Of a stretch of DNA of 64,000 nt, positions 57,836 to 64,000 are shown piece by piece (within the stretch, counting starts at the first letter, position 1; each line of letters begins with the position of its first letter). Position numbers and translations under genes: made by a program. The notes under the pieces were generated by a model. The model was given only the letters and a program-made list of their open reading frames with translations, searched no databases and had not been told where the DNA came from. The stretch comes from Rhodobacter sp. SY28-1 (GTDB taxonomy: Bacteria; Pseudomonadota; Alphaproteobacteria; Rhodobacterales; Rhodobacteraceae), in the NCBI RefSeq assembly GCF_005222785.1, contig NZ_STGH01000002.1, positions 496,001-560,000 on the forward strand, in the 5' to 3' direction.

Positions 57836-58644
57836 GGTGCTGTCAGACGAATGCGAACCAGTCTCCATTACCCGAATCCCACCGTCGGGTCAGGCAGCGA
57901 GAAGGCCGCGCCACTCGGCGAGAGCGGCGGCGCGGGTCTGCTTGTAGGCGTTGCGATCTTGGAGGTGGCGCTCCGTCGGAAAGTGGTTGTGGACTGAGGC
58001 GAACTTCTGCAACGTTCGCATGCGCCGGAACCGCAACATGGCCCGCTCGCGTCGTCGGAAGGGCAGGTGCGAGTTCTCGGCCCTGTTGTTGAGCCAGCGC
58101 CCCATCTCGCGGTCATCACCGCGGCCCAGGTCCTTCGGAGCTGCGCCATAGGACCTCAACCGATCCGTCACGATGATCTCCGGCCGAACGTGCCTCTTCA
58201 TCGCTTTCTTCAAGAATCTAAGGGCTGCCTTGCGATCGCGAGTCTTGGTGGCGATGCTTTCCAGCACCTCGCCTTCATGATCGACCGCGCGCCAGAGGTA
58301 GTGTGTCACCCCGTTGATCCTCACGTAGACCTCGTCCAAGTGCCACCTCCAGTGGCGATGCGCACGCATTGCTTCGACACGCTTGCCGCGGATCTCGGCG
58401 GCGAAAATCGGACCCAATCTGTTCCACAAGTACCGCATCCTCTCATGGCTGATCTCGATGCCACGCTCATGGAGGAGATCCTCGACGTTCCGCAGCGACA
58501 GCGGGAAGCGGATGTAGAGCATCACCGCCATGCGGATGATCTCAGGGCTCGTCTTGAAGTACCGGAAAGGGGAGCGTTCGGTCATCTCCGTAGGCTAGCT
58601 TGCCACCCGGTCCCGCCACAAGGCGAAGTTCCTCTGACAACACC
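57836..58644 (-). mobile_element. IS6-family insertion sequence
   Basis: An 809-bp element. The left end GGTGCTGTCAGACGAA at 57836 and the complement of the right end, GGTGTTGTCAGAGGAA, form imperfect inverted repeats around one transposase gene. It is the only intact-looking IS in the window and lies at the junction between the phosphonate island and the lower-GC carbamoyltransferase module. Confidence 0.8.
57890..58585 (-). CDS. IS6-family DDE transposase
   Basis: A 231-aa transposase of normal length for the family. The DDE triad is Asp84 (WHLDEVYVRINGVTHYLWRAVDHEG), Asp141 (IIVTDRLRSYGAA) and Glu170 (NNRAENSHLPFRRRERAMLRFR). IS6 elements move by replicative transposition and join flanking DNA into cointegrates, so neighbouring genes may have been brought in together. 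The reading frame has no break, so the gene may be active. Confidence 0.92.
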   Translation of the reverse strand: MTERSPFRYFKTSPEIIRMAVMLYIRFPLSLRNVEDLLHERGIEISHERMRYLWNRLGPIFAAEIRGKRVEAMRAHRHWRWHLDEVYVRINGVTHYLWRAVDHEGEVLESIATKTRDRKAALRFLKKAMKRHVRPEIIVTDRLRSYGAAPKDLGRGDDREMGRWLNNRAENSHLPFRRRERAMLRFRRMRTLQKFASVHNHFPTERHLQDRNAYKQTRAAALAEWRGLLAA

Positions 58645-58858: not shown

Positions 58859-59266
58859 ATGGCAGAGAACGACGATCACACCGAAGTTGAAATTGGATCG
58901 CCCCGTTCTTTCGGAATCGTGTTCGCTGTTGTATTCGCCATCGTTGCGCTTTTCCCTTTTTGGCACGGCAATGCACCGCGCATCTGGGCATTGGTTGTGT
59001 GTGCGGTATTCGGCGGCTTGGCCCTCGCGCGACCATCCGTGCTGGATCCACTGAACCGGCTTTGGTTTCATTTCGGAATGTTACTTAGTAAGATCATTTC
59101 ACCAATTGTGATGGGAATCATCTTCTTTGGTACAGTTACTCCAACCGCATGGGTCATGCGCGCCCGTGGTCGGGACCTACTGAGCCAACAGATCGACAAG
59201 GATGCGAAATCATACTGGATCAAGGTTGAACCCACGCCGGAAAGCTCGATGCGGAAACAATTCTAG
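58859..59266 (+). CDS. SxtJ-family membrane protein
   Basis: A 135-aa small membrane protein with three hydrophobic segments (FGIVFAVVFAIVALFPFW; IWALVVCAVFGGLALA; FHFGMLLSKIISPIVMGIIFFGTVTPTAWVMRARG). The pattern LDPLNRLWFHFGMLLSKIISPIVMGIIFF is the SxtJ-like signature. In saxitoxin and many polysaccharide loci sxtJ accompanies a carbamoyltransferase and sxtK. It opens an operon with the two such genes here. Its biochemical role is not known; a scaffold for the carbamoyltransferase is plausible. Composition is noticeably lower in GC than the upstream genes. Confidence 0.82.
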   Translation: MAENDDHTEVEIGSPRSFGIVFAVVFAIVALFPFWHGNAPRIWALVVCAVFGGLALARPSVLDPLNRLWFHFGMLLSKIISPIVMGIIFFGTVTPTAWVMRARGRDLLSQQIDKDAKSYWIKVEPTPESSMRKQF

Positions 59267-59309
59267 GCCCAAAGTGGCCAATAACGATGATACAACATGA
59301 AGGTGCTGA

Positions 59310-59459
59310 ATGTACTTCCTTGCTGAACTTTATGATTTCATGCGGACCCGCAAGAAGTTCTGGCTATTGCCGATTCTAGTCATGCTGGTGCTTCTTGGTG
59401 GTCTGATTGTGCTGACCCAAGGTTCCGCAGTGGCGCCGTTCGTTTACACGTTGTTCTAG
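59310..59459 (+). CDS. DUF5989/SxtK-like small membrane protein
   Basis: A 49-aa protein: MYFLAELYDFMRTRKKFW then the membrane helix LLPILVMLVLLGGLIVLT and a short tail ending FVYTLF. AAGGTG precedes the ATG. The stop is 1 bp before the carbamoyltransferase start, so translation is probably coupled. Proteins of this size (SxtK/DUF5989) regularly lie between sxtJ-like and carbamoyltransferase genes. Function unknown. Confidence 0.8.
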   Translation: MYFLAELYDFMRTRKKFWLLPILVMLVLLGGLIVLTQGSAVAPFVYTLF

Positions 59460-59460
59460 A

Positions 59461-61305
59461 ATGAGCGCCGTCATCGGCCTTTCCGCCTATTATCACGACA
59501 GTGCGGCAGCATTGCTTGTAGATGGCGAACTGGTGGCAGCCGCGCAGGAAGAGCGGTTTACGCGCAAGAAGCACGATGCCCGTTTCCCGCGCAATGCTAT
59601 TGACTATGTGCTGGAGGCAGGAAATCTGTCTCTGGGGGATATCGATCATTTTGCCTTCTACGACAAACCGTTCCTCAAGTTCGAGCGACTTCTTGAAACC
59701 TACGTCGCAAATGCACCCCGTGGGTTTCAATCTTTCAGGACTGCAATTCCGATTTGGGTGCGGGAGAAGCTGTTCCAGAAGGACTTGATGCTAAAGGAAC
59801 TGCGCAAGATTGAAAAAGGTTTCAAGGGGAGAGACAAACTACTTTTCGCTGAGCACCATTTCAGTCATGCAGCAAGTGCCTATTTCCCATCACCGTTTGA
59901 CGAGGCTGTCGTCCTGACGTTGGACGGCGTCGGTGAATGGGCAACGACGACAGTCGCCATTGGCAAGGGACGCGATCTAAAGATTGTCAAGGAGCTTCAC
60001 TTCCCGCACTCGCTGGGCCTGTTGTATTCCGCGTTCACATACTACGCTGGTTTCAAGGTCAACAGTGGCGAATACAAGGTCATGGGCCTTGCGCCTTACG
60101 GAGAGCCGCGCTTCAAGGATCTAATACTTGAAAACATTGTCGATCTGAAAGCGGATGGAACATACCGGCTGGACCAGAGCTATTTCAACTATGCAACCGG
60201 CCTGACCATGACAAACGATAAGTTCGCCAATTTGTTCGGAATGCCAGTCAGAAAGCCGGAAAGCGATTTGATGGAGCAATTTCACATGGATATAGCCGCG
60301 TCGGTGCAGGCTGTCACCGAAGAGGTCGTTTTGCGGATGACTCGGGCGCTTGCCGATGAATACGGTATTCCGAATCTATGCATGGCTGGTGGTGTCGCAT
60401 TGAATTGCGTGGCAAACGGCAAAATCCTGCGCGATGGGCGCTTCAAAGATATCTGGATTCAACCGGCTGCCGGCGATGCAGGGGGAGCGGTCGGCGCGGC
60501 CTATGCCGCCTGGCACACTGAGTTGGGTCATGATCGCAAACGGGACACCAGTCAACGTGACGCGATGAAGGGCGCCTATTTGGGCCCCGAGTTTGGTCAG
60601 GATGACATTGAACGTCGGCTTACAAAAATGGGTGCGGTGTTCGAACGGCTGCCTGAAGATGCGCTGATTGAGGAGACGGCAACCGCGCTGGTCGACGGCA
60701 AAGCCGTTGGCTGGTTCAGTGGTCGGATGGAATTTGGTCCACGCGCCCTAGGCGCCCGGTCCATCCTGGGTGACCCACGGTCAGAGACGATGCAGAAAAT
60801 CCTCAATCTCAAGGTCAAGTTCCGCGAGAGTTTTCGCCCGTTCGCACCATCGGTCCTTAGAGAGGACATGGCCGACTGGTTCGATCTGGACTATGACAGC
60901 CCATACATGTTGCTGGTTGATCTGGTTCGGGCCGATCGGCGCCGTCAGATGACCGAAGAAGAAAGCGCTCTCTTCGGCATCGACAAGCTGAACGTCAAAC
61001 GGTCGGATGTGCCATCGATTACGCACATAGATTACTCTGCCCGCATTCAGACAGTGCATGCAGACACGAACGCGCGGTATCATCGCCTGATTTCGGTGTT
61101 CAAGGAAAAGACCGGCTGCCCCATGGTGGTGAACACGTCGTTCAACGTACGGGGAGAGCCCATCGTCTGCACTCCGGAAGATGCGTTTCGCTGCCTCATG
61201 GGGACTGATATCGAGTTTCTTGTCATCGGCAATGCGGTTTTGCGCAAAGAATTGCAGGATGCCCGATTGGCGGAGGACTACCGTAACAAGTACGAGCTTG
61301 ACTGA
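59461..61305 (+). CDS. NodU/SxtI-family carbamoyltransferase
   Basis: A 614-aa O-carbamoyltransferase. The N-terminal Kae1-like domain has IGLSAYYHDSAAALLVDGELVAAAQEERFTRKKHDARFP and the metal-binding AEHHFSHAASAYFPSPF (His132, His133, His136), with LTLDGVGEWATT. The C-terminal domain has EFGPRALGARSILGDPR and MVVNTSFNVRGEPIVCTPEDAFRC. It would move a carbamoyl group from carbamoyl phosphate, through carbamoyl-adenylate, to a hydroxyl on a sugar or small molecule. The acceptor is unknown. No glycosyltransferase or toxin genes are near. Confidence 0.92.
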   Translation: MSAVIGLSAYYHDSAAALLVDGELVAAAQEERFTRKKHDARFPRNAIDYVLEAGNLSLGDIDHFAFYDKPFLKFERLLETYVANAPRGFQSFRTAIPIWVREKLFQKDLMLKELRKIEKGFKGRDKLLFAEHHFSHAASAYFPSPFDEAVVLTLDGVGEWATTTVAIGKGRDLKIVKELHFPHSLGLLYSAFTYYAGFKVNSGEYKVMGLAPYGEPRFKDLILENIVDLKADGTYRLDQSYFNYATGLTMTNDKFANLFGMPVRKPESDLMEQFHMDIAASVQAVTEEVVLRMTRALADEYGIPNLCMAGGVALNCVANGKILRDGRFKDIWIQPAAGDAGGAVGAAYAAWHTELGHDRKRDTSQRDAMKGAYLGPEFGQDDIERRLTKMGAVFERLPEDALIEETATALVDGKAVGWFSGRMEFGPRALGARSILGDPRSETMQKILNLKVKFRESFRPFAPSVLREDMADWFDLDYDSPYMLLVDLVRADRRRQMTEEESALFGIDKLNVKRSDVPSITHIDYSARIQTVHADTNARYHRLISVFKEKTGCPMVVNTSFNVRGEPIVCTPEDAFRCLMGTDIEFLVIGNAVLRKELQDARLAEDYRNKYELD

Positions 61306-61346
61306 ATCTTCCCCACGCACCGCATAAGCCAAGTGGAGGCTTAAAC

Positions 61347-62450
61347 GTGAGATCCCTGCTGCGACTTCTTGCTATTAACTTCGGCATATTGCTGGTGCTA
61401 GTGATCGGCCTTGAATTAATATTTGGCAGCTGGTTCTCCAAGGTACATGCGCTTCACCAGTTTACCATGCCGCGCGATTGGGTAATAACTGGTCCCAATC
61501 TGTTGTCCGGTGAGCCTGCCGAGACTACCTATTCGCGCGACAGTAATGGTTTTCGTGGATTGAACGGCGATATCGGTGCCATCGACATCATCACCGTTGG
61601 CGGCAGTACAACCGATCAGCGCTTTCTCGACGACAGTCAAACCTACCAGGCTGAACTGATCCGCCTCCTCAACGCGGCGGGTCACTCTGCCGTGATTGCC
61701 AATGCAGGTATCGACGGCCAATCGACCTTTGGTCACATTCATAACTTCGATTCCTGGTTCAATCGAGTGGATGGTCTTAAGACAAGATACTTTCTGTACT
61801 ATATTGGCATCAACGATCTGGTCCGAATTGCACAGACAGATAGTTACGACGCGCTCGAAGCCAAAGGCTGGAAGTTGCGCGCCAAGCTATACATCCGAGA
61901 GAAGTCGGCGTTCTATCAGATGTACCGCATGTTTAAGTCTATGTATCTTGATCATGGACTTGGCCATTCAATCAATCGCACCAATATCGCCGACGCGCCA
62001 CCATTCGCGACCAAGCCACTTCTTGGGCAAATTGAGACACCCGAGGTTAGGCAAGCAATAGTTGATCTTCGGGCGCGTGTACGCGAACTGAACAAACTAA
62101 CCGTAGCATTCGGCGCCAAGGCAATTTTCGTCACACAACGAAGCGCTGCTTGGCGGCGATCCGCTGGTGACGTCGTCGGAGTTGAAAGCGTCAGTGGAGG
62201 TTTTGAGTCCGAGCTTGTCGGACAGTTTGGTCCGATGAACGGCGTTGACATCTACCGGATTGAGCGTCTGGTCGCCGACGGGATAATGGCTGAGTGCACT
62301 GCGGTTGGTGCGGTATGCTTTGACCTCATGGAAGACGTCGACTTCGACCCGACTCGCGATTTCTACGACTCCATCCACACAAACGCCTCTGGTTCGGCAG
62401 TCATAGCCAAATACCTTTCGGAGAAATTGATTGCCGCGGGCATCTTTTAA
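61347..62450 (+). CDS. SGNH/GDSL-family hydrolase with N-terminal membrane anchor
   Basis: A 367-aa protein. The N-terminus LLAINFGILLVLVIGLELIF is a signal anchor, so the rest is probably periplasmic. The hydrolase core has IITVGGSTTDQRFLDDSQTYQ (block I Ser), ANAGIDGQSTFGH, YYIGINDLVRI (block III Asn) and FYDSIHTNASGSAVIAKYLSE (Asp-x-x-His). It likely removes or transfers acyl groups on a polymer or small molecule. GTG 61347 has GGAGG upstream, 41 bp after the carbamoyltransferase gene. Confidence 0.85.
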   Translation: MRSLLRLLAINFGILLVLVIGLELIFGSWFSKVHALHQFTMPRDWVITGPNLLSGEPAETTYSRDSNGFRGLNGDIGAIDIITVGGSTTDQRFLDDSQTYQAELIRLLNAAGHSAVIANAGIDGQSTFGHIHNFDSWFNRVDGLKTRYFLYYIGINDLVRIAQTDSYDALEAKGWKLRAKLYIREKSAFYQMYRMFKSMYLDHGLGHSINRTNIADAPPFATKPLLGQIETPEVRQAIVDLRARVRELNKLTVAFGAKAIFVTQRSAAWRRSAGDVVGVESVSGGFESELVGQFGPMNGVDIYRIERLVADGIMAECTAVGAVCFDLMEDVDFDPTRDFYDSIHTNASGSAVIAKYLSEKLIAAGIF

Positions 62451-63268: not shown

Positions 63269-64000
63269 CTATCCCTCCATTGTGTCTACTTTTCACTCGT
63301 ACCTTTGCCTTCGTAACCCTCTTCAGTTGGCCTCAAACTGGGCCGGGCCGTCATCGCACTCAATGGAGCGCGCGGGCTGGTTTTGTCAAAGAAATGCTCC
63401 ATTGGCGTCGTCCTGTGCCCGCCTCGCTTGGCAGTTTGGCGATACTCCAAGATTGCTTAATCTTTGCCAAGCACGCTGACACGATCGGCCCTGAAATTCC
63501 CGATAGTCAGGTTAGCAGATCAGCTTCTTCTGACAATACCAAATGGCAGGTTCAGCGTGATCCCTGTTCTTCCGACTTCTTTCCCTGATCGGTCGAATTT
63601 TCTTCCCTGATACGCCGAATTAACTTCCCTGTTTCCAGCGAGCAGGGAATTTTCCCGTAACCCACGGAAATTGCCCCGCTATTCAGGAAGAACAATCTCT
63701 CAAAAGGCCCTGGAAATCCGATCTTCCCTGTTATTTCCCTGTTCTTGTGTCTCGGGCAAACGGAGCCGGGCCGTCCCGGCACGGAGACTGCGGTCGAAAA
63801 AACAGGGATGAGCAGGTGGTGCTGGCGTCTCCGCGGCGATCATGCCGCCGTAACCCCCGGAAACAGGGAAGAATTCACCGCTAGAACGGAAAGAGCATAA
63901 ATATTAAGGGGTGGGTGGCGGAGACGAAGTCCGCCGCAAACGTGTTGCAGCGGGTGTCATCCCCTCTGAGAGGGCACATCATGCTATTGATTTTGAATGT
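63269..64000. other. Terminal 730 bp without a confident gene
   Basis: It contains an inverted repeat CAATGGAGC/GCTCCATTG at 63361-63369 and 63396-63404, then the TTCCCTG array, then GC-rich sequence to the window end. Frames at 63232-63588 and 63552-63782 (minus) run through the repeats and have no convincing start signals. I see no tRNA or rRNA. Confidence 0.5.
63560..63870. repeat. Array of TTCCCTG/CAGGGAA heptamers in 11/22-bp phase
   Basis: Direct copies start at 63560 (one mismatch), 63581, 63603 and 63625, giving spacings of 21, 22 and 22 bp. An inverted copy lies at 63643; direct copies at 63724 and 63735 are 11 bp apart; inverted copies are at 63803 (one mismatch) and 63864. The helical phasing looks like a protein-binding array or iterons. 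The spacers between copies differ, so it is not a simple tandem duplication. Confidence 0.65.

Follow-up and report, generated by a model that had tools for sequence, protein, structure and literature searches.

We analysed a cassette of four adjacent genes in a stretch of 64,000 nucleotides (nt) from Rhodobacter sp. SY28-1 (contig NZ_STGH01000002.1, positions 496,001 to 560,000; hereafter the window). The cassette encodes an SxtJ-family membrane protein, a DUF5989 microprotein, an O-carbamoyltransferase (CT) and an SGNH protein with an N-terminal membrane anchor. What is new here is the acyl-shuttle hexapeptide, F-x-Y-x-x-F, at the C-terminus of DUF5989. We think it rather probable that the cassette performs a transmembrane carbamoyl transfer built like the Dlt and PatA/PatB systems, with a soluble CT replacing the MBOAT protein. 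The CT would load the tyrosine of DUF5989, SxtJ would dock the CT, and the SGNH protein would transfer the group to an envelope hydroxyl.

The C-terminal hexapeptide of DUF5989

The DUF5989 microprotein (59310..59459, on the forward strand like the other three genes) is 49 amino acids (aa) long, has a single predicted membrane span and matched PF19451 with 89.8 bits (cut-off 27). Its C-terminal hexapeptide, FVYTLF, is encoded at 59439..59456 on the same strand, with the codon of Tyr46 at 59445-59447. DUF5989 proteins were compared in two sets of loci. For the first survey, 87 loci were picked from the DUF5989 matches of the family, class and phylum, and 86 were kept after a sub-threshold match without a core gene (L075) was dropped. 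The named set consisted of the best 80 of 588 relatives, and the two sets share some loci (for example L104/L191 and L143/L181). The motif stood at the exact C-terminus of 87 out of 90 DUF5989 proteins in the first survey and of all 75 in the named set (162/165 in total), usually as A-P-F-I-Y-T-L/I-F. The tyrosine at position -4 was invariant (90/90 and 75/75, or 165/165). Hydropathy indicated a single span; the N-terminal flank is net positive in the window protein and was more positive than the C-terminal one in 163 of the 165 proteins; the predicted topology is N-in, C-out.

Few other open reading frames (ORFs) ended in this way. The first survey contained 94 such ORFs among 14,020 in six frames, namely 87 DUF5989 proteins and 7 long ORFs. 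Five of the latter (L071, L124, L127, L130 and L133) were PF03062 MBOAT proteins by Pfam scan, and those of L129 and L131 shared the tail of the L130 protein. The named set yielded 78 such ORFs among 8,919: 75 DUF5989 proteins, one MBOAT (L228) and two unrelated ones. Twenty control loci, which have a CT and lack DUF5989, gave a single case among 2,935 ORFs, again an MBOAT (L294). This MBOAT ends in FIYFQF, and 8 nt after it comes a CT that has neither SxtJ nor DUF5989 (L294:6583-9806).

According to PMC12148441, the acyl group in DltX and PatA is borne by the tyrosine of a C-terminal FXYXXF and so delivered to an SGNH transferase, the SGNH protein PatB accepts acetyl from an acetylated FIYANF peptide, and MBOAT systems except Dlt are described as having no DltX-like microprotein. 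The DltX motif is FLYFGF and is predicted to face outward (PMC11035591, available in part). By analogy, DUF5989 fits the acyl-shuttle type in protein kind, predicted topology, motif and SGNH neighbour. No paper on DUF5989, and none tying it or SxtK to acyl shuttles, came up in a literature search that judged most papers from the listing alone and lacked most subscription journals; this does not prove novelty.

A profile of MBOAT C-terminal tails, with the MBOATs chosen by Pfam alone, placed 67 DUF5989 proteins in the top 100 of 19,952 ORF tails, MBOATs excluded. It was built from 16 tails, 15 of them with the motif and one MBOAT counted twice; the tail of the L252 MBOAT was cut. An earlier profile had used chosen MBOATs, and the Pfam-only version is the fairer of the two. 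PF19401 was weakly matched by 9 of 39 DUF5989 proteins (best 0.0016), and a DUF5989 profile gave nothing credible against the PDB (best E 0.26).

The genome of Rhodobacter sp. SY28-1 itself (98.9% complete) contained no PF03062 MBOAT match, so the acyl source should be the adjacent CT. DUF5989 also occurred between two SGNH-profile ORFs with no CT or SxtJ nearby (L126). At L228 (4536-9824) and L129, a DUF5989-SGNH-MBOAT row was divergent from SxtJ-CT-SGNH; at L228 the genes of the row were separated by a 4-nt overlap and then by 6 nt. This arrangement links the CT module to MBOAT-SGNH systems.

The cassette, its conservation and its surroundings

The SxtJ-family protein (58859..59266, 135 aa) matched PF19588 with 32 bits (cut-off 24.4), and its AlphaFold2 model has a mean pLDDT of 90. 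The TobZ/GdmN/NovN-type CT (59461..61305, 614 aa) matched Carbam_trans_N (PF02543) with 368 bits and Carbam_trans_C (PF16861) with 241 bits. The SGNH protein (61347..62450, 367 aa) matched Lipase_GDSL with 27.5 bits (cut-off 23.6) and Lipase_GDSL_2 with 28.4 bits, under the cut-off of 32.9. Gaps of 43, 1 and 41 nt between the genes are consistent with a single operon. A single terminator-like pattern was found, against 4.4 expected by shuffling, and it lies inside the SGNH gene. GC content per kb was 0.515-0.561 at 59-64 kb and 0.561 at 58-59 kb, against 0.596-0.718 earlier in the window. ORFs, Pfam matches, gaps and GC content agree with the original prediction, made from the letters of the window, of a tight operon of lower GC. 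An origin of the four-gene set by chance or artefact was ruled out by the four Pfam families and their conservation.

Judged from sequence, the CT is a complete TobZ/GdmN-type O-carbamoyltransferase with both domains. Its PDB relatives 9s2t, 7xb6, 7vyj and 3ver matched over nearly the full length, and orthology to NodU was rejected (NF041651, 144.4 bits against a cut-off of 1000 bits). No hydrophobic span was found in the CT, which is presumably cytosolic. SxtJ has predicted helices at 15-36, 42-57 and 59-102, followed by a tail with a conserved Asp106, Tyr119 and C-terminal Phe. Position 135, after a conserved S/T-Y-W region, was aromatic in 45/45 proteins (Phe 39, Tyr 6). A fold search with SxtJ gave nothing at E <= 0.001. 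SxtJ is a proposed dock for the CT at the membrane, probably acting through its tail, because this tail is conserved and because phage mini-SxtJ genes adjoin the CT. On four viral contigs (L257, L259, L260 and L262) a 48-aa protein directly before the CT matched the C-terminal part of SxtJ (FLPVGLILRVFKIDLL...SYW), and this piece is perhaps a minimal membrane dock. A further locus listed as viral (L261:4992-8043) had a CT, a 57-aa SxtJ-like piece and an SGNH gene, no DUF5989, and neighbours that by eye resembled sugar biosynthesis genes.

The SGNH proteins were compared in a selected alignment of 38 rows (A2), of which 25 rows plus 13 others correspond to neither survey set exactly; 13 of the 44 SGNH proteins near the module in the named set lie outside it. 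Ser87 and His344, encoded in the window at 61605-61607 and 62376-62378, were invariant (38/38), and a hydrophobic N-terminal segment was present in 37 of the 38. At E <= 0.01, Lipase_GDSL_2 matched 37/40 of the near SGNH proteins of the first survey and 30/38 of A2, and ALGX (acetyltransferase AlgX) matched 9/40 and 7/38. The SGNH profile used in the surveys grew from 7 to 72 matches over the search rounds and may have drifted, the Pfam check having come afterwards. When eight profile-picked ORFs were scanned singly against Pfam, three scored above the cut-off, three scored below it and two were unmatched (L126:10122-11519 and that of L233). AlgX, AlgJ and PatB1 were among the PDB relatives of the A2 profile. 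A structural search with VIA-align named no DltD, AlgJ, AlgX or PatB among the 50 matches listed, which excludes nothing.

The cassette had been suggested to be a portable, membrane-linked carbamoylation system; a portable, membrane-linked carbamoyltransferase module is supported, and the survey showed it to be conserved. SxtJ, DUF5989 and CT occurred together on the same strand in 76/86 loci of the first survey and 65/80 of the named set; the genes are thus not rarely associated. An SGNH gene stood no more than 500 nt from the nearest core gene in 40/86 and 44/80 loci, and no more than 5 kb away in 48 and 50. The 20 control loci had no SxtJ, no DUF5989 and no SGNH gene. Fisher tests of SGNH within 500 nt against 0/20 controls gave 2.3e-5 (40/86) and 1.6e-6 (44/80), values that overstate independence because the two sets partly overlap and because the controls were hand-picked among lower-scoring matches, many of them from few families. 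Locus scans used profiles grown from the window proteins, and gene maps came from a simple ORF caller. One locus (L157) appears decayed, and two (L226 and L235) are truncated by contig ends.

Among the genomes sampled, 72 of 385 from the class and 56 of 398 from the phylum had a DUF5989 match above the cut-off. Holders of the module included Sinorhizobium, Bradyrhizobium, Pelagibacteraceae and some cyanobacteria. Gene order was as in the window on an annotated plasmid of Rhodobacteraceae SC52. In Pseudobacteroides cellulosolvens (L233) and a gammaproteobacterial metagenome-assembled genome (L232) it was CT-SxtJ-DUF5989-SGNH, which corresponds to sxtI-J-K-L; here SGNH was called by our own profile, and the L233 candidate had no Pfam match. 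The annotated plasmid of Methylosinus C49 carries the trio and SGNH, as SGNH/GDSL, SxtJ family, DUF5989 and a carbamoyltransferase named as such by the annotators.

The module had been described as lying away from polysaccharide genes. This holds for the window, where the scanned neighbours were mobile and defence genes, and fails in Ensifer canadensis and Sinorhizobium meliloti, where the module adjoins such genes. On the E. canadensis plasmid it lies inside a polysaccharide region. On pSymB of S. meliloti (L236), SGNH is divergent from SxtJ-DUF5989-CT, and a block of SDR, GalE, glycosyltransferase, DUF995 and GH26 genes, which we take to be an arabinose-containing polysaccharide cluster, lies about 8 kb from the module. 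A single constant biosynthetic partner was rejected, as no family occurred in more than 7 among 110 scanned neighbour proteins. This tally is uneven: the 110 were drawn from 266 proteins of the named set (562 over both sets), all came from L157-L199, and many of the loci were marine Pelagibacteraceae.

Mobile elements bracket the module, as had been predicted. On the left, on the reverse strand, are an IS6-family transposase (57890..58585; NF033587 172.5 bits, cut-off 125; PF13610) and a fragment of a DDE transposase (DDE_Tnp_1_2, PF13586; 57160..57561). On the right, a tyrosine integrase ORF of 472 aa (63911..65329, forward strand; PF22022, PF13356 and PF00589) runs across the end of the window at position 64000. 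Upstream of the transposases lies what looks like a phosphonate-use operon, its ORFs judged by eye. Downstream of the integrase, from 66246 and thus beyond the window, a Vsr endonuclease, a cytosine methyltransferase and relatives of MzaE, MzaD, MzaC and MzaB form an Mza-like defence island, which is separate from the carbamoyl module. A role of the module itself in anti-phage defence was rejected, since PADLOC gave no match for the CT or the SGNH protein, the two proteins covered by that scan. The CT was found in 1 of 32 Rhodobacter genomes, its own (E <= 1e-100), and DUF5989 exceeded its cut-off in 7 of 198 genomes of the family; these counts point to recent acquisition of the module.

Proposed mechanism and alternative explanations

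By the chemistry of the TobZ family, the cytosolic CT would use carbamoyl phosphate and ATP to form carbamoyl-adenylate. SxtJ would bring the CT to the membrane, probably via its conserved tail, and the carbamoyl group would pass from the CT to the tyrosine of the DUF5989 motif, as the motif itself suggests. The resulting Tyr-carbamate would be presented periplasmically, where the serine of the anchored SGNH protein would take the group and transfer it to an envelope hydroxyl, probably of a polysaccharide. A tyrosine aryl carbamate is a good donor and hydrolysis of a Ser-carbamate is slow, as the chemistry of carbamate inhibitors teaches, so that transfer can outcompete hydrolysis. We propose, by analogy, that the SGNH protein is a carbamoyl transferase acting on an envelope hydroxyl. 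The editing role first suggested for it is less likely than transfer, because the hexapeptide of DUF5989 is the one from which SGNH transferases receive the acyl group in DltX/DltD and PatA/PatB.

A broader claim, for which we see the chances as evenly balanced, is that the cassette represents a third kind of acyl transfer across bacterial membranes, alongside the MBOAT-SGNH and AT3-SGNH classes. An ATP-driven CT would pass the group to the C-terminal tyrosine of DUF5989 (probably the same as SxtK), from there to a periplasmic SGNH transferase, and on to the envelope. In that case, the saxitoxin cluster would have taken over the cassette as a finished unit.

Several findings weigh against transmembrane carbamoyl transfer. 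A periplasmic tyrosine and a cytosolic CT require a path through the membrane, and the proposal leaves a crossing without an MBOAT tunnel unexplained; SxtJ is the sole other multi-span membrane protein of the cassette. TobZ-family enzymes are known to use soluble acceptors in the cytosol. The block II residue of the SGNH protein is Gly124, of hydrolase type (in A2: 26 Gly, 9 Ser, 1 Asn, 1 Ala and 1 Gln of 38), its structural model (mean pLDDT 79) is nearest to the hydrolases CgnD and TesA and to acetylxylan esterases, and esterases outrank AlgX, AlgJ and PatB1 in the PDB search with the A2 profile. No SGNH gene was found within the fetched stretch in 36/86 and 27/80 loci. DUF5989 is absent between SxtJ and CT in L207 and L218, and absent from the four viral contigs with a CT and the 48-aa SxtJ piece and from L261. 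Of the two ORFs flanking DUF5989 in L126, one had no Pfam match and the other a weak one. Pfam DltX (PF12459) was unmatched among 39 DUF5989 proteins at E <= 10. Without its last six residues, the MBOAT-tail profile placed only 4 DUF5989 proteins in the top 100 and 15 in the top 200. The likeness therefore lies in the hexapeptide alone, and convergence is possible; homology of DUF5989 to MBOAT tails outside the hexapeptide was unsupported.

Many of these findings would also suit an alternative that we regard as unlikely, in which the CT, like TobZ and NodU, adds carbamoyl directly to a precursor that is cytosolic or faces the membrane. SxtJ and DUF5989 would merely anchor the CT, and the SGNH protein would act separately in the periplasm as an esterase that takes off or trims the carbamoyl group, the editing first suggested for it. 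The esterase-like fold and canonical block II glycine of the SGNH protein, the loci in which SGNH was not found and the phage loci with a CT and mini-SxtJ but no DUF5989 all favour it, as does the proposal that sxtL cleaves carbamoyl groups (PMC2679770, available in part). However, direct carbamoylation leaves the invariant C-terminal acyl-shuttle motif of DUF5989 without a reason, and likewise the presence of DUF5989 beside SGNH genes where no CT occurs.

A convergent origin of the hexapeptide, for packing of membrane proteins, appears improbable. DUF5989 and SxtJ would then form a scaffold, with the aromatic C-terminus as a binding tag. That the likeness is limited to six residues, and that position 135 of SxtJ is also Phe or Tyr (45/45), would agree with this. 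However, not just an aromatic residue but Tyr itself was kept in 165/165 DUF5989 proteins, and 8 of the 10 other ORFs ending in the motif in the two surveys were MBOATs, of which six were identified by Pfam scan and two from their tails. Very improbable, finally, is that DUF5989 is an accessory of MBOAT-SGNH acylation systems whose polysaccharide loci the CT module merely shares: an MBOAT with the motif did lie within the fetched stretch of eight surveyed loci, and DUF5989, SGNH and MBOAT did occur together in L228 and L129-L131, but Rhodobacter sp. SY28-1 itself lacks any PF03062 match and DUF5989 accompanied SxtJ and CT in the great majority of loci of both sets.

Transmembrane carbamoyl transfer would supply a testable role for DUF5989, so far a family without a known function, and for the unexplained genes sxtJ and sxtK. 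If it is true, carbamate becomes one of the acyl groups carried outward by tyrosine shuttles, the MBOAT turns out to be replaceable, and in many bacteria with the module envelope molecules may bear an overlooked mark of +43 Da.

Comparison with known systems

The CT resembles TobZ, GdmN and the decarbamoylnovobiocin carbamoyltransferase across both domains. These enzymes modify small molecules and are not known to need membrane partners, which sets them apart from the role proposed for the CT. CgnD of crocagin biosynthesis, a structural neighbour of the SGNH protein, differs in being reported as a hydrolase that frees the peptide core.

The original prediction had placed the trio in saxitoxin clusters; it had overlooked sxtL, with which the four-gene content was already known there, as sxtI-J-K-L. 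PMC2679770 lists sxtI, J and K followed by sxtL, given as a GDSL lipase. By this published gene list, the saxitoxin genes are alike in all four kinds, with a carbamoyltransferase, sxtJ, an sxtK of 165 nt and a GDSL protein. They differ from the cassette in order, which here is J-K-I-L, and in surroundings, the scanned neighbours here being mobile and defence genes. Two sxt papers, each available in part, call SxtJ and SxtK unknown or hypothetical, or let them act with SxtI in carbamoyl transfer.

PatA/PatB and AlgI/AlgJ/AlgX share with the cassette the C-terminal hexapeptide and an SGNH partner, AlgX, AlgJ and PatB1 being profile relatives of the SGNH protein. Unlike in these systems, the hexapeptide here sits on a separate microprotein and the donor is not acyl-CoA. 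Block II of PatB has Ser or Asn, whereas the SGNH protein here keeps Gly.

A further parallel is with Dlt, which consists of the MBOAT protein DltB, the microprotein DltX and the SGNH protein DltD. Both have a one-span microprotein that ends in F-x-Y-x-x-F, a C-terminus predicted to lie outside and an SGNH partner (PMC12148441 and PMC11035591, as far as available). Whole-length similarity of DltX to DUF5989 was not found among the 39 members searched. Unlike Dlt, the cassette is without an MBOAT or a carrier protein, and the donor would instead be a TobZ-type CT together with SxtJ.

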